In this document: one piece after another, positions 1-63,075 of the stretch
Position numbering within the stretch: the first letter of the stretch is position 1
How the letters are laid out: every line of letters begins with the position of its first letter
Assembly: GCA_017577945.1 (NCBI GenBank)
Contig: PKQS01000009.1
Span: forward strand, 310,001-374,000
Length of the DNA stretch: 64,000 nt
Source: Bacillota bacterium
Lineage (GTDB): Bacteria > Bacillota > Limnochordia > Limnochordales > ZCTH02-B6
Direction of reading: 5' to 3'
Translations under genes and position numbers: made by a program
The notes under the pieces: generated by a model
Told to the model about the DNA's origin: nothing
The model's input: only the letters and a program-made list of their open reading frames with translations
The model's database searches: none

Positions 1-1
1 T

Positions 2-505
2 GAAGAGGCCGCCCAGCGCTACGCGAACCTGACCCGCTGGTACGAGCAGTACGGCCACTTCTGGATCGGCACGGGCGCTTTCTACCTGGCCTCCGTGCAC
101 CCGGTCGAGGGCAGCTTGGTGTTGCGGCGGTACGAGAACTATCCGGACCCGGCGGATCGGTGGAGCATCTTCGCCGATCCGATGTACGCCGAACTGTCGG
201 TCGAAGGTCCGGCTCGCGTGACTCGCGGCCAGACGGCCCGGTTTGACCTCTGGGTCACCTTCGACGGCGAACCGTACCCGGCTGACCTGATCTCGGATGT
301 TTCGTTCGTCCTGATCAGCTCGGCCGGCGAAGTGGCGCTGTCCGGCAAGGCCCAGCTAGTGGCTGACGGCCTGTACGAGGTCGTGTTGACGCCGGAGCAG
401 ACGGCCCGGCTGCCCGTGGGCGCTACCCAGCTGGCGGGCGTCGTGGTGCCGATTCCGGTGGCCAAGCCCACGATGGAGACGGTGAGCTTCATCGTTACTC
501 CGTAG
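2..505 (+). CDS. C-terminal part of ABC transporter substrate-binding protein (family 5), 5' end outside window
   Basis: The reading frame is open from the window edge to the TAG at 503-505 (167 codons visible). It begins inside a family-5 solute-binding protein: an aromatic YEQYGHFW stretch is followed by IGTGAFYL (about residues 23-30), the equivalent of the conserved IGTGPF motif, and then VLRRYENY. In ordinary members this motif lies before the middle of the protein, yet here only a beta-rich, Ig-like segment of about 110 residues follows and then the stop. The neighbours oppB, oppC, oppD and oppF make it the receptor of a peptide-type importer, acting outside the membrane. The motif position matches the permuted binding protein at 60766-62469, so this protein may be permuted too, with an added domain. 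Its N-terminus cannot be seen. Confidence 0.8.
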   Translation, partial: EEAAQRYANLTRWYEQYGHFWIGTGAFYLASVHPVEGSLVLRRYENYPDPADRWSIFADPMYAELSVEGPARVTRGQTARFDLWVTFDGEPYPADLISDVSFVLISSAGEVALSGKAQLVADGLYEVVLTPEQTARLPVGATQLAGVVVPIPVAKPTMETVSFIVTP

Positions 506-5966: not shown

Positions 5967-6077
5967 CGCTGCCCCCTCCCTCGCATCACAGTCTAGGACA
6001 ACGTATGCACGCCATCCAGCCGGTATGCGCGAGCCCGGCCCCTGCGCCGCCGCTGGTCGATGTTGGCCGGCGGGCGG

Positions 6078-8159
6078 TTACGAAGCACCTCGCGACGCGG
6101 CCGCCTGGGCGATAATCGCCGCCGCCAGCTGCTCGGGTAGTTCCTCGTAATGGTCCAGCTCGGTCCGGAACGTCCCGCGCCCTTGCGTGATGGACCGCAA
6201 GTCCATGGCGTAACGGGTCATTTCGGCCATGGGCACATGGGCGCGGATGACTTGGTTGCCGTCCTGCCGGTCCATGCCGAGGATGCGCCCGCGCTTCTTG
6301 TTGAGGTCGGCGATGACGTCGCCCATGAAGCGCTCGGGCACCACCACTTCCACGTACAGGATGGGCTCCAGCAAGACGGGCTTGGCTTTCATGAAGCCTT
6401 CCTTAAAGGCCATGGACGCCGCGATCTTGAAGGCGAGTTCGGACGAGTCCACGCTGTGGTACGACCCGTCGTACAGCGTGACGCGCACGTCCACGACCGG
6501 GTAGCCCGCCAGCACGCCCTCGGCCATCGTTTCCTCGACGCCTTTCTGGACCGCCGGGATGTACTGCTTCGGGACGGCGCCGCCGAAAATCTTGTCGACG
6601 AACTCGAACCCGCCGCCCGGCGGCAGCGGCTCCAGCTCGAGGAAGACGTGGCCGTACTGGCCGCGCCCGCCGGTCTGCTTCTTGTGCTTGCCTTCTTGCT
6701 GGACTTTCGCCCGGATCGTCTCCCGGTAGGGGATCCGCGGCGGAACCAGCTCCACCTCGACGCCGAACTGAGTCTTCAGGCGGCTGGTGACGATCTCCAG
6801 CTGCATCTCGCCCATGCCGGAAATGAGCAGCTCGCCCGTCTCGGGGTTCTTGGCCGTTTCAAACGTCACGTCCTCGTCCTGGATACGGGCAAGCCCAGCG
6901 GCAATACGGTCCTCGTCCCCTTTCGCCTTAGGAACCAGCGCCATGGTGAGCACGGGCTTGGGGAACACAGGACGCTCGCAGCGGACAGGACGATCCTTGC
7001 GGCTGAGCGTGTCGCCCGTCGTCGTCACCTGCAGCTTGGCCACCGCGCCCAGGTCGCCCGCCGACAAGGCGGAAACGGGAACCTGCTCCTTCCCGCGCAG
7101 CACGAACAGTTGCGCGAGGCGCTCGTCTTTGTCCTTGTCGACGTTGCGAATCGACCCGTCTCCGGCGGTGAGGGTGCCCGACACGACGCGGAACAGAGTG
7201 AGCCGCCCCACGTACGGGTCCGATATGGTCTTGAAGACCAGCGCCGCCAGCGGCCCCTCCGGGTCAGCCGTGAGCGTCAGGCGCTCACCGGTCCGCTCGT
7301 CGACGGCTTCGTAGCGCGCTCCTTCCGCCGGTGAAGGCAAGTATTCGACGATGCCATCCAGCAGCGCGTCGGTTCCGATGCCTTGCAGGGCCGAGCCGAG
7401 CCAGACCGGCACCAAAAGGCCTCGCCGCACCGCCGAAGCCAAGGCGGCCCGCAGCTGCTCCGCCGGGATTTCCTGATCTTCCAGGAACAGCAGCGTCAGC
7501 TCGTCGTCCGTCGCCGCGATCGCTTCCACCAGCTGAGCGCGGTACTGCTCGGCCGCGTCGGCGAGTTCGCTGGGGATGGCCGCCTTCTTGACGCCCGCGC
7601 CGTCCTTGACGTACGCTTCCATGGTCAGCAAGTCAATCCAGCCGCGGAAGCTGTCGGCTTGCCCGATGGGCAGCTGCAGCACGGCCAGCTCAGCCCCGAA
7701 CGTGTTGCGCAGCTGGTCCAGCGTGCGTTCGAACGAAGCGTTTTCACGATCCATCTTGTTAACAAAAAAGGCACGGGCAAGGCCTCGCTCTTCCGCCATC
7801 GCCCATGCCTGCTCGGTGCCGACTTCAACGCCCGACGCGGCGCACACAACGCACACCACCGCGTCCGCTGCGTAAAGGGCGCTTCGCACTTCGCCGACGA
7901 AGTCGAAGTAGCCCGGCGTGTCCAGCACGTTGACCTTATGCTCTTTCCACTCGCACGGAACCAGCGACGTGTGAATGCTCAGCTGCCGTTTCGCTTCCTC
8001 GGGGTCCCAGTCGCTGACCGTGTTGCCGTCGTCCACTTTGCCCATGCGAGCCAGCGCGCCCGTGGCGTACAGCATCGCTTCGGTCAGCTGTGTCTTCCCG
8101 CAGCCGCCGTGGCCGACGAGCGCGACGTTCCGAATCCGGCTTGTCTCGTATTGCCTCAA
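6078..8159 (-). CDS. Elongation factor G-like GTPase
   Basis: The 693-aa translational GTPase has the EF-G domain order. G1 is GHGGCGKT at about residues 15-22, G3 is DTPGYFDF and G4 is NKMD. Domain II follows at about 280-370 and domains III-V after that, with the loop GGRGQYGHVFLEL. It belongs to the EF-G-like paralogue group whose members start MxQYETSxIRNVALVGHGG rather than to ribosomal-operon fusA. The cellular role of this paralogue is unclear; ribosome recycling or a specialised translocase are possibilities. I set the start at TTG 8159, since AGGAGG is 7 nt upstream and the family N-terminus aligns there, rather than at ATG 8186. It stands alone, without rpsL/rpsG. Confidence 0.88.
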   Translation of the reverse strand: MRQYETSRIRNVALVGHGGCGKTQLTEAMLYATGALARMGKVDDGNTVSDWDPEEAKRQLSIHTSLVPCEWKEHKVNVLDTPGYFDFVGEVRSALYAADAVVCVVCAASGVEVGTEQAWAMAEERGLARAFFVNKMDRENASFERTLDQLRNTFGAELAVLQLPIGQADSFRGWIDLLTMEAYVKDGAGVKKAAIPSELADAAEQYRAQLVEAIAATDDELTLLFLEDQEIPAEQLRAALASAVRRGLLVPVWLGSALQGIGTDALLDGIVEYLPSPAEGARYEAVDERTGERLTLTADPEGPLAALVFKTISDPYVGRLTLFRVVSGTLTAGDGSIRNVDKDKDERLAQLFVLRGKEQVPVSALSAGDLGAVAKLQVTTTGDTLSRKDRPVRCERPVFPKPVLTMALVPKAKGDEDRIAAGLARIQDEDVTFETAKNPETGELLISGMGEMQLEIVTSRLKTQFGVEVELVPPRIPYRETIRAKVQQEGKHKKQTGGRGQYGHVFLELEPLPPGGGFEFVDKIFGGAVPKQYIPAVQKGVEETMAEGVLAGYPVVDVRVTLYDGSYHSVDSSELAFKIAASMAFKEGFMKAKPVLLEPILYVEVVVPERFMGDVIADLNKKRGRILGMDRQDGNQVIRAHVPMAEMTRYAMDLRSITQGRGTFRTELDHYEELPEQLAAAIIAQAAASRGAS

Positions 8160-56189: not shown

Positions 56190-57236
56190 TTATTGCGCCG
56201 CCTGCAGCGACTTGCGAGATTCCTCCAGCGCCGCCAGCGAACGGTCGATGTGGTGGCAGGCGGCCCAGTGGCCCGGCTCGTGTTCCAGTAATGGGGGGAC
56301 CTCCTGCTTGCAGCGTTCCGTCGCCAGCGGGCAGCGCGGGTGTAGCCGGCAGCCCGACGGCGGATTGGCCGGATTCGGGATCTCGCCCTGCAAGCCGGTG
56401 TAGATCTGCTTCTTGCGCGGGTCCGTCGACAGCACGGCCCGCATGAGGGCCTGCGTGTACGGGTGGTGCGGCTTTTGCACCAGGCGCGTGGAGTCGGCGT
56501 ACTCGACGATCTTGCCCAGGTACATGACGGCCACGCGGTCGCAGAAATGCCGCGCCAGCGCCAAGTCGTGGGTGATAAACACCAGGGACAGGCCGCGCTC
56601 GCGCACGAGCCGCATCAGGATCTTCAGGATTTCGCCCCGGATGGAGACGTCCAGCATAGACACCGGCTCGTCGGCCACGATGAAGTCGGGATCCAGCACC
56701 AGGGCGCGAGCGATGGCCACGCGCTGCCGCTGGCCGCCCGACAGTTCCTTCGGGAAGCGGTGCATGTACTCTTCCGCGGGAGTCAGCTCCACGTCTTCCA
56801 GGGCCCGGATGACCTTCTCCTCCACCTCGGCAGGGTCCTTCGCCAAGCCTTGGATGCGCAGCGGCTCGGACACGATGGTGAAGACGTCCATGTTGGGATT
56901 CATGGAGTCATACGGGTCCTGGAAGACGATCTGCATGCGGCGGCGCAGCTTCTGCATTTCGCTCGGGCTCAGTTTCGTGATGTCCTGGCCGTCGAAAATA
57001 ATCTGGCCGGCCGTCGGTTCCTCCAGCCGCAGCAGCGTGCGGCCCGTGGTCGTCTTGCCCGAGCCCGATTCGCCCACCAGGCCGAAAATCTCCCCCCGGC
57101 GCACGAAAAAGTCGACGCCGTCCACCGCCCGCACGGCAGGACGCCGCCCGCGCAGCACGTCTTTCAGGCTGCGCCGCAGCGGAAAATGCTTGACCAAGCC
57201 CTTTACTTCGAGGATCACGTCGCTCTGCTGCGTCAT
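56190..57236 (-). CDS. ABC peptide-type transporter ATP-binding protein, OppF-like (second operon)
   Basis: The 348-aa ATPase has Walker A GESGSGKTT at about residues 57-65, signature LSGGQRQR, Walker B FIVADEPVSMLD and H-loop ITHD. The C-terminal GCRLHPRCPLATERC carries the usual Cys pattern. It pairs with the OppD-like protein encoded just upstream; its ATG overlaps that stop codon (ATGA). The in-frame extension to 57341 lies inside oppD and is not used. It is the last gene of the five-gene operon. Confidence 0.93.
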   Translation of the reverse strand: MTQQSDVILEVKGLVKHFPLRRSLKDVLRGRRPAVRAVDGVDFFVRRGEIFGLVGESGSGKTTTGRTLLRLEEPTAGQIIFDGQDITKLSPSEMQKLRRRMQIVFQDPYDSMNPNMDVFTIVSEPLRIQGLAKDPAEVEEKVIRALEDVELTPAEEYMHRFPKELSGGQRQRVAIARALVLDPDFIVADEPVSMLDVSIRGEILKILMRLVRERGLSLVFITHDLALARHFCDRVAVMYLGKIVEYADSTRLVQKPHHPYTQALMRAVLSTDPRKKQIYTGLQGEIPNPANPPSGCRLHPRCPLATERCKQEVPPLLEHEPGHWAACHHIDRSLAALEESRKSLQAAQ

Positions 57237-58225
57237 GCGAACCTCACCTTCGCCACTTGCCCGTCGTCCGACACTTTCAGGCACGCCACCTTGTGGCCGG
57301 CGCGGCCCTTTTCCTCCAGCGCCGGCTCGTGCCGCTTGCAATGCTCGTCGGCCAGCGGGCAGCGAGGATGGAACCGGCAGCCGCTGGGCGGGTCGACCAG
57401 GTTAGGCGGCGTTCCCGGGATGGACACGATGGGCGCCCGCTCGGCGTACATGTCCGGAAACGCCTGGACTAGGCCTTGCGTATACGGATGGAGGGGGTTC
57501 GTGAACACTTCCTCCACCGGCCCGTACTCGACGATGCGCCCGGCGTACATGACCGCCACGTCGTCGCACGTCTGGGCCACTACCGACAGGTCGTGGCTGA
57601 CGAGAATCATGGACAAGTTCAACCGCTTGCGCAGGTCGGCCATGGCCTTCAGCACCTGGGCTTGCACCATCACGTCCAGCGCCGTCGTCGGCTCGTCCGC
57701 GATGATGATGTCCGGATTGCACGCCAGCGCCATGGCGATGACGGCCCGCTGCTTCATGCCGCCGCTGAACTGGTGCGGGTAGTGATGGTAGCGGTTGGGA
57801 TTGATGCCCACCATTTCCAGCAGCTTCTTGGCGCGCTCTTCAGCTTCATCCTTGCTGACTTTCTCGTGGGCCAAAATGGCCTCGGCGATCTGGCTGCCGA
57901 CCGTCAGCACCGGATTGAGCGCGTTCATGGCCCCTTGGAACACCATGGAAATCCGCTTCCAGCGGATACCTTTCCGGAACGCCTCATCGGTCAGCTCCAG
58001 CAGCTCTTGATCATCCAGCTTGATGGAACCGCCGACGACGCGCCCGTTGGGAGGTAGGAGCCGCAGCAGCGTGAGGCCCAAGCTCGACTTGCCGCAGCCG
58101 GACTCGCCCACCACGCCCAGCGCCCGGCCAGGCTCCAGCGTGAAGCTGATCTTGTCGACGGCGCGGACCTCGCCCTTGCGCGTCTTGTAATACATCTGCA
58201 AGTCAGTGACGACGAGTCGTCCCAT
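57233..58225 (-). CDS. ABC peptide-type transporter ATP-binding protein, OppD-like (second operon)
   Basis: The 330-aa ATPase has Walker A GESGCGKSS at about residues 39-47, signature FSGGMKQR, Walker B IIIADEPTTALDV, H-loop VSHD and C-terminal GCRFHPRCPLADEHC. The signature and DEPTTALD are of OppD/DppD type. It lies between oppC (10-nt gap) and oppF (overlap). The substrate is probably the ligand of the permuted binding protein at 60766-62469. Confidence 0.93.
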   Translation of the reverse strand: MGRLVVTDLQMYYKTRKGEVRAVDKISFTLEPGRALGVVGESGCGKSSLGLTLLRLLPPNGRVVGGSIKLDDQELLELTDEAFRKGIRWKRISMVFQGAMNALNPVLTVGSQIAEAILAHEKVSKDEAEERAKKLLEMVGINPNRYHHYPHQFSGGMKQRAVIAMALACNPDIIIADEPTTALDVMVQAQVLKAMADLRKRLNLSMILVSHDLSVVAQTCDDVAVMYAGRIVEYGPVEEVFTNPLHPYTQGLVQAFPDMYAERAPIVSIPGTPPNLVDPPSGCRFHPRCPLADEHCKRHEPALEEKGRAGHKVACLKVSDDGQVAKVRFA

Positions 58226-58235
58226 GCCGCAACCC

Positions 58236-59657
58236 CTACCTCTCCCCGTTCCGGCGATTCAGGATGTCATCCAGCGTGTTGCCCATGAACACGAAGGCCA
58301 AGGCCAGCAGCGTCAACGCCAGGCCGGGCGGCAAGATCCACCACCAAGCCAGCGCCGTGAAAGCGCCGAACGACTTGGCGTTTTGCAGCATGCGGCCCCA
58401 CGTGGGCACTGTTGGGTCGCCGAACCCGAGGAAACTCATGGTGGCTTCGGTGAGGATGGCGCTGGGGATGAGCAGCACGAGCGACGCGAACACGAGCCCC
58501 AAGACATTGGGCAAGATATGAGCGCGCATGATGTACCCCGGCCGCGCGCCTGCAGCCCTCGCCGCCTCGACGAACGTGCGCTCGCGCAAGGTCAGCGTCT
58601 GCGACCGGACGAGGCGCGCCACGCTCATCCAGGAGAAGATCGCCACCAGGAAAACCAGCGCTTCGATGCTTTGGCCCACGATGGCCACGACCACAATCAT
58701 GATGGGCAGGAATGGAATGGAAATCATCACGTCCACGATGCGCATCAGCAGTTCGTCAACCCAGCCGCCCAGATAGCCGCTGACAATCCCGACCAGGGTG
58801 CCGACGAAGACGGCGATGATCGCGACGACGAAGCCGATAAGCAGCGACGTCCGGGTGCCGTAGACGAACTGCGACCACAAGTCTGCGCCCAAATGATCGG
58901 TGCCCAAGAGCCCGTGCAGCTGCCCGGGAATGCGGAACCGGCTCTCGCCGACGGTGAATGTGGCCGCGCCGGCTTCAGAGGCGCCCGTCATCTCGAACTC
59001 CGCGACGAGGCGGTACTCGCCGCGTTCGCCGAACAGCTCCTTGGCCACGTTGGCGAACGGCTGGAACCCTAGGCGCATCTTCAGCTGCAAATCCCGCGAG
59101 TCGACGCGCTGGACCGTCCAGCGCTGCTCATTGCGCAGCACCCGGGATTCAAACAGGCGGTACGTGTCGCCCGCGGGCGTCTCCAGCGTGATGCGCGCCT
59201 GGCCCGTGACGCCCGCCCCGCCGGAGAAGGCATACGGCAGTTCCAGGATAAACATGTCCGGCGCGCCGGCGTCGTACTCGAACTTGTGTTCCAGCACGAG
59301 ACGCCCGCCGCCTTCACCGGTGCTGGTGATGACCATCACGTCGGCGCCTTCACGCTCGCGCCAGTCGATTTCGACGTTCTCGCGCTCCGCGACGTGCCAG
59401 TTGCGCAGCAGGAACACGTCCACCGTCACGGGCGCGTCCTTGTATTTCGGGAACAGGCGCATCCACGCGGGGCGTGCCATGGCGGCCGCCAGCGAACGGT
59501 CCGTCACGGGATCATACGGCGTCAGCCACGGAGCCGCCAGGCCGAGGAAGAGAAAGATCAGGAACAGAACCAGGCCGAACACGCCGCGGGGCGAGCGCAA
59601 AAACTCCGACCACACTTCTCGCCACGCGCTTCTGCGCCTCGTTTTCTTCTTGCTCAT
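58236..59657 (-). CDS. ABC peptide-type transporter permease, OppC-like, with large extracytoplasmic insertion (second operon)
   Basis: The 473-aa protein is about 170 residues longer than usual. Helix 1 (about residues 27-45, VFGLVLFLIFLFLGLAAPWL) is followed by an extracytoplasmic beta-rich insertion at about 50-220. Then comes the standard QLHGLLGTDHLGADLWSQFVYGTRTSLLIG (in part) and the permease core with the EAA loop FVEAARAAGARPGYIMRAHILP. The insertion differs in sequence from that of OppC at 1751-3094 but occupies the same place. ATG 59657 is 8 nt after GAGG and is preferred to GTG 59666. It follows oppB closely. Confidence 0.92.
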   Translation of the reverse strand: MSKKKTRRRSAWREVWSEFLRSPRGVFGLVLFLIFLFLGLAAPWLTPYDPVTDRSLAAAMARPAWMRLFPKYKDAPVTVDVFLLRNWHVAERENVEIDWREREGADVMVITSTGEGGGRLVLEHKFEYDAGAPDMFILELPYAFSGGAGVTGQARITLETPAGDTYRLFESRVLRNEQRWTVQRVDSRDLQLKMRLGFQPFANVAKELFGERGEYRLVAEFEMTGASEAGAATFTVGESRFRIPGQLHGLLGTDHLGADLWSQFVYGTRTSLLIGFVVAIIAVFVGTLVGIVSGYLGGWVDELLMRIVDVMISIPFLPIMIVVVAIVGQSIEALVFLVAIFSWMSVARLVRSQTLTLRERTFVEAARAAGARPGYIMRAHILPNVLGLVFASLVLLIPSAILTEATMSFLGFGDPTVPTWGRMLQNAKSFGAFTALAWWWILPPGLALTLLALAFVFMGNTLDDILNRRNGER

Positions 59658-59662
59658 CGCAC

Positions 59663-60628
59663 TCACCTCAGTCGGATCCGCGGGTCCACCAACCCGTAGA
59701 CCAGGTCAGCCAGGAAGTTGCAGATCAGTACCGCCAAAGCGATGATGAAGAACGCTCCTTGGACGACCGGATAGTCGTGCCGCAGCGTCGCTTCGATCAA
59801 GTAGCGCCCGACGCCGTACAGCGAAAAGATTTGCTCAGTGATAACTGCCCCGGTGATCAGGCCGGGCAGCGACAAGAAGACCAGCGTCACGATGGGCGGC
59901 AGGACGCTGCGGAAGGCGTGGCGGTACAGCACTTCACGATTGGTGAGCCCTTTGGCGCGCGCGGTCAGGATGTAGTCTTGGGTCAGCGCGCCGACGATGT
60001 TGTTGCGCGTGTACAGGTACCAGGAGCCGTAGCCGCTGAGCACGACGGCCGCCACCGGCAGGACCAAGTGATGAATGCGGTCAACGACGATATCCCAGAA
60101 TTCGGTTGGCGGCGGCACGCTCATGGTGCCCCGGATGGGGAAAATCGGCCAATAGTATCCGAAAATGAGAAGCAGCACAAGGCCCACGAAGAACGCGGGC
60201 ATGGCGTTCAGGAACAGCGAAATGCCCGTAATCGCCGTTTCCAACCGCGTGCCTTGCTTGGCCGCCATTTGCAGTCCCAGCGTGATGCCGATGAAGACGT
60301 TGAGCACGAACGCCGTGCCGAGAAGCATCAGCGTATTGGGCAGCCGGTCCAGGAGCTCGTCCAGCACGGGCTGGCGATCATAAAACGAGCGCCCAAAGTT
60401 GAACGTCAGCATGTTCTTGAGATAAAGGACGTACTGGGTCGGCAGCGGCTGGTCCAGCCCGAACTGTTTCATGAGCAGCTGGCGCATCTCCGGCGTAAAC
60501 TCGGGGCTGATGACCAGCGAAATCGGGTCGCCGGGCATGATGCGAAAGATGACGAAATTCACCGTCATGATGATGAAGAGCGTAATCAGCCCGTAGAGTA
60601 AACGCCGCCACACATAAGCACCCGGCAT
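59663..60628 (-). CDS. ABC peptide-type transporter permease, OppB-like (second operon)
   Basis: The 321-aa protein has the standard OppB layout: helix 1 (about residues 12-30, LLYGLITLFIIMTVNFVIF), then RIMPGDPISLVISPEFTPE, and five more helices. The EAA-type loop is YILTARAKGLTNREVLYRHAFR, in part, and the chain ends DPRIRLR. The first loop is of normal size, unlike OppB of the first operon. I chose ATG 60628, about 10 nt after AAAGG, rather than ATG 60655. A hairpin separates it from the binding-protein gene. Confidence 0.92.
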   Translation of the reverse strand: MPGAYVWRRLLYGLITLFIIMTVNFVIFRIMPGDPISLVISPEFTPEMRQLLMKQFGLDQPLPTQYVLYLKNMLTFNFGRSFYDRQPVLDELLDRLPNTLMLLGTAFVLNVFIGITLGLQMAAKQGTRLETAITGISLFLNAMPAFFVGLVLLLIFGYYWPIFPIRGTMSVPPPTEFWDIVVDRIHHLVLPVAAVVLSGYGSWYLYTRNNIVGALTQDYILTARAKGLTNREVLYRHAFRSVLPPIVTLVFLSLPGLITGAVITEQIFSLYGVGRYLIEATLRHDYPVVQGAFFIIALAVLICNFLADLVYGLVDPRIRLR

Positions 60629-60669
60629 CACAACACGACCTTTCTCTCCAATCATGCTGGAGTGTTAAA

Positions 60670-60765: not shown

Positions 60766-62469
60766 TTACTTGTCCAGACCGGCCCAGAAGCCTTCGTAGC
60801 GCTCCACCCGCACGTACTCGCCCGGCACGTACTCCTTGAAGACGAACGGACCCGTGCCGATCATCATCGTCAGGCCCTCGACCGTCGGATGCGGCACCTT
60901 CCACGGCTCGAACTCGTCGTACTTCTCGACGTTCTCCCAGATGTGCTTGGCCAGGAAGCCCGCCACGTTGTAGACGTGCCAGTAGCTCACGTTGTCAAAG
61001 TACACCGTGATGGTGTACGGGTCGTGGATCTCGCTGTGGCTGTAGTGCTCCCAGGCCGACATGTACAAGGGCACCTGCTGGGCCTTCAGGTAGTCCATCG
61101 TGAACTTGACGTCCTCGGCCGTGAAGGGCACGCCGTCGTGCCACGTGATGTCATCCCGCAGGTAGAAGGTCACCTTGGTGCCTTCCGTGCCTTCGGGCGT
61201 GATCCACGTGCCGACTTCCCACGCCTTGGCTTCCCACGGAACGTCCTGGTTGTTGATGGGCTCCGCGGCGATGAGACCCGGACCGTAGACCAGACCGAAG
61301 ATCTGGTTGTCATACGCCGAGCTGCCGACCAGGACGTTCAGGCTGCCGGGCTCCTGGGACAGCAGCCAGCGGACGGTGCCGCCGCGCTCCTGGTTCACCA
61401 GGCGAATGTTGAGCGCCGTCCAGATGCTGTTGGAGATGTTGCTGGCGGCGCCGAAGCCCAAGTGCGGCACGAAGCCGGTCACCCGGTCAATGCGGAACGC
61501 GTCGATGTACGGGCGAGAATAGAGCGGCACGTACGGCTGCAGGATCGACAGCATCTCCTGCGCCTCATAGGCCGCCTCCATGGCCTCCTCGAGGCTCCGC
61601 GGCGTCCAGACCCGCTCGGCCAGCTGGTCGTACAGCGGGTCGCGCAGGCCCGGGATGTTCTGCGCGCCTTCGACGTCAAACCGCGAGTGGAACAGCGAGT
61701 ACAGGTGCGTCGGGAACCGGCTCAGGCCCCACGCCAGTGCGTACATGTCGAAGTCGCGGTCGCCGTTGACGTCGGTGTACAGGCGCTGCGTGATGACGTT
61801 GAAATCCATGGGCTGCGCGTACACCGGCAGGCCGATGGACCGGGCCGCCTCGGCGATCATCTCGCCCAGCATGGCCGACGTCGGCGCGGCTTCCATCGTG
61901 GGCGTCAGGATGTACATATCACGCATCCGCTGGCCGGTGGCCGGGTCGATGCGGAAGCCGTCGGGACCCATGACGTAGCCGGCCTCGTCCAGAATCTGCT
62001 TGGCCAGCTCCGGATCGTACTCCGCCACCTCGGTGTCCGGATTGAAGAACGGCGAGGCGGGCGGCACGAACTCAGCCAGCGGCAGCATGTAGCCCTGGAA
62101 CAACTCGAGGATGATTTCGTCCCGGTTGATGACGTGGGCGATGGCCCGCCGAACGGTGATGTCGTTCAGGGGCGCCCGGCGCATGTTGAACCCGAGATAG
62201 AACATATGATAGCCGGGAGACATGGTCAGCTCGATGTTCGGGTTGGCCGCCAGGCGTTCGATCTGCGCCGGCAGCGTCAGGCCGGGATAAATGTCCACAT
62301 CACCGCGCTCGATGGCGAGAATCCGGGCTTCATCGTCCATGATGATCGGCAGCAGGATCTCGTCGACGTACGGCCCTTTGGTGCTGTATGTGACCTCCTG
62401 GGCGAGCGCCAGCGCGCTGCTGGCCACCAGCAAGGCCACGGCAAGGGCAAAGCTTAGGATCTTGCGCAA
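60766..62469 (-). CDS. ABC transporter substrate-binding protein, family 5, circularly permuted
   Basis: The 567-aa exported receptor has a signal peptide (residues 1-23, MRKIL, hydrophobic stretch, LALA) with no lipobox Cys. Family-5 landmarks occur in rotated order. First comes GPYVDEILLPIIMDDEARIL with GDVDIYPG, then LGFNMRRAPLNDITVRRAIAHVINRDEII (in part) and YDPELAKQILDEAGY, which normally belong to the C-terminal half. From about residue 363 come the normally N-terminal segments: EPGSLNVLVG, FYLRDDITWHDGVPFTAEDVKF, IGTGPFVFKEY and YEGFW. The chain ends WAGLDK, exactly where a normal member continues into GPYVDEI. It probably binds peptides or related solutes for the adjacent oppBCDF. 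Without a lipobox it may be soluble or held by the permease. Confidence 0.93.
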   Translation of the reverse strand: MRKILSFALAVALLVASSALALAQEVTYSTKGPYVDEILLPIIMDDEARILAIERGDVDIYPGLTLPAQIERLAANPNIELTMSPGYHMFYLGFNMRRAPLNDITVRRAIAHVINRDEIILELFQGYMLPLAEFVPPASPFFNPDTEVAEYDPELAKQILDEAGYVMGPDGFRIDPATGQRMRDMYILTPTMEAAPTSAMLGEMIAEAARSIGLPVYAQPMDFNVITQRLYTDVNGDRDFDMYALAWGLSRFPTHLYSLFHSRFDVEGAQNIPGLRDPLYDQLAERVWTPRSLEEAMEAAYEAQEMLSILQPYVPLYSRPYIDAFRIDRVTGFVPHLGFGAASNISNSIWTALNIRLVNQERGGTVRWLLSQEPGSLNVLVGSSAYDNQIFGLVYGPGLIAAEPINNQDVPWEAKAWEVGTWITPEGTEGTKVTFYLRDDITWHDGVPFTAEDVKFTMDYLKAQQVPLYMSAWEHYSHSEIHDPYTITVYFDNVSYWHVYNVAGFLAKHIWENVEKYDEFEPWKVPHPTVEGLTMMIGTGPFVFKEYVPGEYVRVERYEGFWAGLDK

Positions 62470-62820
62470 GACGCGAAACCTCCTTCTCCTTCGCCTTCGT
62501 TCTCCTGACTGCGTCCCGTGGGACGAATAGGCATGCAGACCTCCTTCGAACTCTTCACCTCCCCCACAGGCTTGGGAGTTCCGTGGAATCTAAGCACCCC
62601 TGGGGTGGATAACAAACGTCATCCACCTTTTGGGGAAGGGATATTCGCTGCGATGTTCACGGATCCTTTTGCCGGGTAGAAGAAAAAAGTTGCTATTGCG
62701 TATTTCCTTCATCATACCACGAAATAGCCCGTGGGGAACGCTCTGGATGGAAATGTTTTCATTGCGATTTGACGGGGCGGAAGCAAATATTTGCAATAGC
62801 GTGAAGTTGTAGGCTGGTTA
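62470..62820 (-). promoter_or_regulatory. Promoter and structured leader of the second opp operon
   Basis: This stretch holds no convincing gene. On the minus strand TGGTATGAT (62711-62719) is an extended -10, about 240 nt before the binding-protein start. Downstream in the leader GGTGGAT...ATCCACC (62604-62610 with 62621-62627) forms a stem that CCCC/GGGG can extend. Upstream, GCAAATATTTGC (62783-62794) is a perfect 12-bp palindrome, with GCTATTGCG-type repeats in opposite orientation on either side. AAGGAGG-type sites occur near the start codon. Confidence 0.45.
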
Positions 62821-62999: not shown

Positions 63000-63075
63000 T
63001 GGTGGACCTGAGCGGGCTCGAACCGCCGACCTCTGCGTTGCGAACGCAGCGCTCTCCCAGCTGAGCTACAGGCCC
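63000..63075 (-). tRNA. tRNA-Ala (anticodon CGC)
   Basis: This is a 76-nt cloverleaf on the minus strand. The acceptor GGGCCTG pairs with CAGGTCC and includes the G3-U70 pair that identifies alanine tRNAs. The D arm is GCTC...GAGC. The anticodon stem CTGCG/CGCAG has loop TTCGCAA (anticodon CGC). The T arm is GGCGG-TTCGAGC-CCGCT, with encoded CCA. The CGC anticodon reads GCG, a favoured codon in GC-rich genomes. Confidence 0.97.

Follow-up and report, generated by a model that had tools for sequence, protein, structure and literature searches.

The gene at positions 60766 to 62469 of the window (the whole 64,000-nucleotide stretch of Bacillota DNA analysed here) very probably encodes a functional, naturally circularly permuted substrate-binding protein (SBP) of cluster C (family 5), as judged from its sequence and a predicted structure. 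This high confidence covers the permuted, functional SBP; the docking role that we propose for an extra domain of its permease partner is graded separately below.

Segment order of the window receptor

The reading frame follows an AGGAGG motif at 62479-62484, nine bases 5' of the start (by eye), and its parts, numbered along the window protein (P0001), are as follows.

60766..62469, minus strand: type A circularly permuted SBP_bac_5 protein, 567 aa, exact open reading frame, TTG start
62401..62469, minus strand: Sec signal peptide, P0001 residues 1-23, cleaved between ALA and Q (site placed by eye), without a lipobox (lipobox scan)
61465..62382, minus strand: ancestral C-terminal part, P0001 ~30-335 (PF00496 139-354; DppA ~205 to chain end)
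61384..61482, minus strand: junction of the ancestral C- and N-termini, P0001 ~330-362, ..NIRLVNQERGGTVRW.. (rotation optimum and profile-end distance)
60784..61383, minus strand: ancestral N-terminal part, P0001 ~363-562 (PF00496 4-146; DppA 47-206)

A tRNA-Ala gene (anticodon cgc; window 63000-63075, minus strand) separates an ordinary SBP operon from the permuted SBP operon.

The protein runs from the signal peptide through GPYVDEILLPIIMDDEARIL ... NIRLVNQERGGTVRWLLSQEPGSLN ... WHDGVPFTAEDVKF ... IGTGPFVFKEY to ... YEGFWAGLDK, followed by the stop. This is the order that the first-pass annotation had written down for the 60766-62469 frame, and the swapped profile matches and rotation gain described here bear out its proposal of a clean permutation in which the ancestral termini were fused and a new break was made between YEGFW and PYVDE. 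The PF00496 profile (SBP_bac_5) scores 232.5 bits against a gathering cut-off of 32.4; by sequence, homology to SBP_bac_5 and cluster C is not in doubt, and the order of the segments is what is new. The match consists of two partial stretches that are swapped instead of collinear, with profile positions 139-354 in the first half of the protein and 4-146 in the second. Family profiles call such permutants SBP_bac_5, and the swap becomes visible only when the order of the two stretches is checked.

A profile built from ordinary SBPs of the collected loci served to score every rotation of the mature chain. A single collinear match over the full length, which the annotation had named as evidence against a permutation, was not seen: the highest-scoring single domain in the native chain reached 231.8 bits and covered only profile positions 245-546. 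The best rotation scored 351.3 bits over positions 33-546, near full length, and the optimum spans mature residues 306-339 (P0001 329-362). A second type A protein rose from 253.8 to 399.7 bits on rotation, and two ordinary SBP controls, including one kept out of the profile, peaked at most 4 residues from their unrotated start with a gain of at most 1 bit. In a phmmer comparison with DppA (1dpe), mature residues 387-540 correspond to DppA 47-206 and mature residues 10-151 to DppA 209-346, the first of these stretches being weak (i-Evalue 1.1e-4). Since DppA 206 and 209 flank the cut, the new ends are only two DppA residues apart, and, measured in 32 type A proteins, the junction separates the fixed profile ends by 24-36 residues. 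On this evidence the protein is, as far as sequence can tell, a natural circular permutant, in which a short linker connects the ancestral termini and the new termini lie where ordinary members are continuous. Old and new termini presumably all lie in one lobe of the SBP. The permuted gene is assumed to have arisen by the usual route, in which an in-frame tandem duplication would have been followed by loss of both ends; two long open reading frames read as possible fused tandem intermediates, in G001 (1203 aa) and G005 (916 aa), each hold one SBP in ordinary order.

The structure prediction points the same way. Compared with DppA, as the annotation had suggested, residues 6-335 of an AlphaFold2 model (window protein and 30 homologues; mean pLDDT 90.1, pTM 0.86) superpose on DppA 205-507, up to the chain end (Z 26.7, rmsd 2.7), and residues 22-336 on AppA 224-520, again up to the chain end (Z 29.6, rmsd 4.0). 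A partial placement reaching the chain end is expected of a permutant under a sequential aligner; here the placement covers model residues 6-336, and the rest was matched to the N-terminal part of DppA by sequence alone. Model and alignments together indicate that the OppA/DppA-like bilobed fold is, in prediction, kept. The Pfam family of the protein is SBP_bac_5, and among the structural matches listed its counterparts are cluster C proteins.

Spread, conservation and expected localisation of type A

Homologues with the same order, for which the annotation had proposed to look, are present in many genera. In a search of 60 genomes, own genome included, 16 others matched collinearly over nearly the full length, with 49-78% identity (73-78% in the six closest), and in G039 and G043 the match falls into two halves at contig ends. 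Of 398 genomes of the phylum, which cover 267 genera, 26 from 18 genera matched a 17-row profile of type A (E <= 1e-80, at least 470 of 561 positions); these profile searches scored at most three candidates per genome for the SBP and at most seven for the DppC domain described below, and absences are not firm. A scan of named records returned 31 type A loci, 28 near full length and three cut at contig ends. Thirty of them, from many different metagenome projects, are titled Bacillota, Firmicutes, Clostridia, Clostridiales, Limnochordales or plain 'bacterium'; the other (L071) belongs to a metagenome-assembled genome of Acetomicrobium hydrogeniformans (Synergistota), where the protein is 38% identical and lies on a 697-kb contig, and may reflect transfer between phyla or an ancient origin. 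The three sets overlap, and the collected loci amount to 34 distinct type A proteins.

Several side observations belong here. The L071 operon has a shorter DppC insertion, of 140 residues. In L051, L052 and L053 a tandem pair of type A SBP genes precedes one dppB-dppC pair, and two genomes of the class (G054 and G059) show a striking expansion of family-5 SBPs, with 69 and 67 SBP_bac_5 matches. A tblastn search of plasmids with P0001 gave 2266 records, 42 of them with at least 80% query cover, a measure that joins pieces regardless of order; in the three records checked, the SBPs were all in ordinary order. Type C, introduced below, had no plasmid match at 1e-5.

The annotation had itself raised the concern that an assembly or sequencing rearrangement might have swapped the halves of an ordinary gene, and the window genome is indeed a draft of 19 contigs. 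The recurrence of one order across those 26 phylum genomes and the loci of many metagenome projects, together with gene ends conserved in 17 aligned proteins, speaks against such an artefact, which we regard as excluded for practical purposes. It is equally far-fetched that the gene is a decaying or non-functional rearrangement: nothing in type A favours this, some type C and other matches being those that contain an internal stop, whereas no listed type A match has one, 146 positions are invariant among the 17 aligned homologues, close relatives retain the 73-78% identity given above, and the operon is kept.

The annotation had also expected the permutation to change which lobe is attached, and this part found no support. 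Of the distinct type A proteins, 32 have an N-terminus that can be read, and none of these shows a lipobox-like motif (the same scan of 32 ordinary SBPs gave two matches, judged by eye to be chance), so nothing suggests anchoring, and tethering as the reason for the permutation was set aside on the same count. Two neighbours in L056 do have a lipobox-like start; the ordinary-SBP profile gives them only 5 and -1.5 bits, and they are therefore not counted as family 5. A soluble periplasmic SBP is normal in a diderm. The own genome has an Omp85 match, and Limnochordia are given as diderm in the available text of PMC11456536, so that a free periplasmic SBP is to be expected in this class, in which relatives (one titled Limnochordales) would place the own genome. 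From what is known of the family, the permuted SBP would be exported through Sec, cleaved, and would work free in the periplasm.

The importer operon and its DppC insertion

Directly downstream of the receptor gene, the window encodes a DppB-DppC-DppD-DppF-like importer, to which the permuted SBP would, by analogy with the family, hand its ligand.

59663..60655, minus strand: DppB-like permease (BPD_transp_1 and BPD_transp_1_N; operon order; exact start uncertain)
58236..59666, minus strand: DppC-like permease, 476 aa (family match; model; structural match to 8z1w_B)
58914..59504, minus strand: extracytoplasmic insertion of DppC, residues 55-251, all-beta in the model, MAM/CBM-like (alignment, profile, model)
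57233..58225, minus strand: DppD-like ATPase (named from translation and operon place; relatives lie 3' of dppC in other loci)
56190..57341, minus strand: DppF-like ATPase (named from translation and operon place; start uncertain)

The arrangement is kept in the named loci: dppB comes next on the same strand in 29 of 31, the other two contigs ending within the SBP gene, and dppC is present in 26 of the 29 with dppB, the contigs of L043, L057 and L061 ending. On longer contigs dppD and dppF come after dppC. In L050, L054, L058 and L063, the dppD frame 3' of dppC is ~685 aa long and may be a D-F fusion.

The DppC model matches chain B of E. coli DppBCDF (8z1w_B; Z 28.1, rmsd 2.4), and in the window DppC 197 residues intervene between the first membrane segment and the BPD_transp_1 core. 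Among type A-linked DppC proteins, the 22 that were aligned have such an insertion, 140-245 residues long; they were selected for having at least 420 query residues aligned, a filter that favours proteins with the insertion. A dppC frame is present in 26 named loci, and 21 of these passed the filter. The other five gave long frames in L052 and L053 (557 and 566 aa), a protein split over two frames in L069 and proteins cut by contig ends in L051 and L066; no DppC lacking the insertion was seen among them, L051 being too truncated by its contig end to be judged.

With the whole DppC modelled, the insertion is predicted with good confidence to be an all-beta domain. It resembles MAM-containing chains (Z 11.4-12.0 over ~140 residues, for the domain within the whole-DppC model) and, by Foldseek, carbohydrate-binding modules (TmCBM27, E 4.5e-5). 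A profile of the insertion matches 27 of 398 genomes, namely the same 26 that have a type A SBP plus G387, where the contig starts within dppB, leaving the SBP out of view. SBP and insertion lie on one contig in 25 of the 26; in G022 they are on two, and in the L057 record, which holds the same protein as G022, the contig ends in dppB. The DppC insertion is thus co-inherited with the type A SBP. The own genome also encodes an adjacent, ordinary importer. Its 402-aa DppC has a shorter loop, in which no similarity to the insertion was detected (hhalign 0.2%), although this miss is weak evidence because only one sequence was used.

In MalF, a permease subunit of another importer, one extracytoplasmic loop contains an additional domain, P2, which lies next to the site where the SBP docks. 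By analogy, the extra DppC domain, in the loop after the first membrane segment, might help to dock the permuted SBP, a role to which we assign slightly less than an even chance. MalF P2 belongs to another transporter family and sits in another loop, and no homology is claimed. The association of SBP and DppC may also reflect only the joint descent of one operon.

Other permuted clades and known systems

A second permuted receptor begins outside the window and reaches into it.

1..505, plus strand: 3' end of the type C permuted SBP (858 aa), last 167 codons and stop (whole gene L041:7930-10506)

This type C copy of the own genome has the same cut as type A and a C-terminal extension of ~118 residues, and it heads its own dppBCDF-like operon with a long DppC. 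Type C was found in 13 of 299 genomes at E <= 1e-60, in nine of them over at least 800 of 818 positions; the matches in G238 and G025 hold stops. Rotation raises its score only from 45.9 to 57.1 bits and without a sharp optimum, so the type C permutation rests on the swapped matches of the own copy, on two Pfam stretches in two of three proteins (L090 has one) and on alignment by eye. Its DppC insertion is homologous to that of type A (hhalign 94%, E 1.4e-7).

Clade B is cut near profile position 287, giving the order C-terminal third, N-terminal part, middle. Segment profiles recover this order in seven proteins (L086 at 6021-7661, L087, L088, L089, L114, L115 and L116), including L089, which shows a single Pfam stretch. 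Eight of 299 genomes passed for type B, six near full length and two (G262 and G324) in part. The DppC of B operons is of ordinary size in four of four (frames of 296-314 aa), and in L115 the SBP gene lies 3' of dppF. Because the A and B cuts differ, at least two permutation steps are required, and because clade B has an ordinary-size DppC, permutation as such does not need the DppC domain.

In a tree of the rotated SBPs (16 of the 34 distinct type A proteins used), A, B and C each form one well-supported group; neither this tree nor a DppC-core tree joins A and C, and C sits on a very long branch. Whether A and C descend from one permutation event, the DppC insertion belonging to that ancestral importer and B being a separate event, is in our estimation evenly poised: the same cut, the homologous insertion and the SBP-B-C-D-F order common to both favour a single origin, against which stand the failure of both trees to unite them and the long C branch.

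Clade B also bears on whether the permutation matters at all, since it persists with another cut and an ordinary DppC. It is possible, though somewhat short of evenly likely, that the change was selectively neutral, a break in a tolerant loop that spread with its operon, the DppC domain having an unrelated role such as sugar or cell-wall binding. The best non-transporter folds of the domain do include MAM domains and carbohydrate-binding modules, and no tethering reason is seen. Against neutrality, the same-cut clades A and C share the homologous DppC insertion, and all 27 domain matches in the 398 genomes occur with type A or, once, at a contig end that hides the SBP. More tentatively than the docking role itself, we propose that family-5 SBPs of Bacillota were permuted more than once, with two new cuts (A/C and B), and that A/C constitutes an importer subtype in which the SBP and the DppC beta-sandwich co-evolved as a docking pair. 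A permutant of a whole family-5 receptor, present in many genera with its own importer, is a natural experiment on which parts of an SBP serve docking and gating, for which clade B, cut elsewhere, offers a comparison to type A.

In NCBIfam, none of the ten models that the window protein matches comes anywhere near its cut-off; for DppA_dipep the score is 74.6 bits against 1005. In the available text on E. coli, DppA R383 and D436 bind the ends of the dipeptide, and a scoop motif of DppB reaches into the cleft of DppA, where it pairs with the residues holding those ends (PMC12136057). The ligand region of the window protein aligns with AppA 'WSLSTFPDQ' (the comparison was made with AppA and others). 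Counterparts of R383 and D436 may be absent from it. No enzyme recurs beside the operon in the open reading frame lists of 13 loci, read by eye for a clue to the ligand.

The cluster C proteins DppA, OppA, AppA and NikA share with the window protein the PF00496 family, the predicted fold over the aligned part and DppBCDF-type partners; in the window protein the segments are rotated, with new termini at DppA 206/209. The annotation knew of no description of such a permutation, which holds for family 5 within the literature searched (subscription journals and preprints lay mostly outside it) and fails for SBPs at large: TpMglB-2 (Tp0684) of Treponema pallidum, the sole natural permutant recognised among the matches listed, was published in 2016; it is of Type I / cluster B and was classed as 'Type Ic / Cluster Bc' (PMC4990184). 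In the text available from that report, TpMglB-2 is likewise a natural permutant of an ABC importer SBP, relatives in other species share its topology, and a membrane tether is raised as a possible reason for its permutation (PMC4990184). It belongs to another SBP cluster and is cut elsewhere, and type A has no visible tether. By analogy with 'Cluster Bc', the permuted cluster C SBPs could be named 'cluster Cc'.
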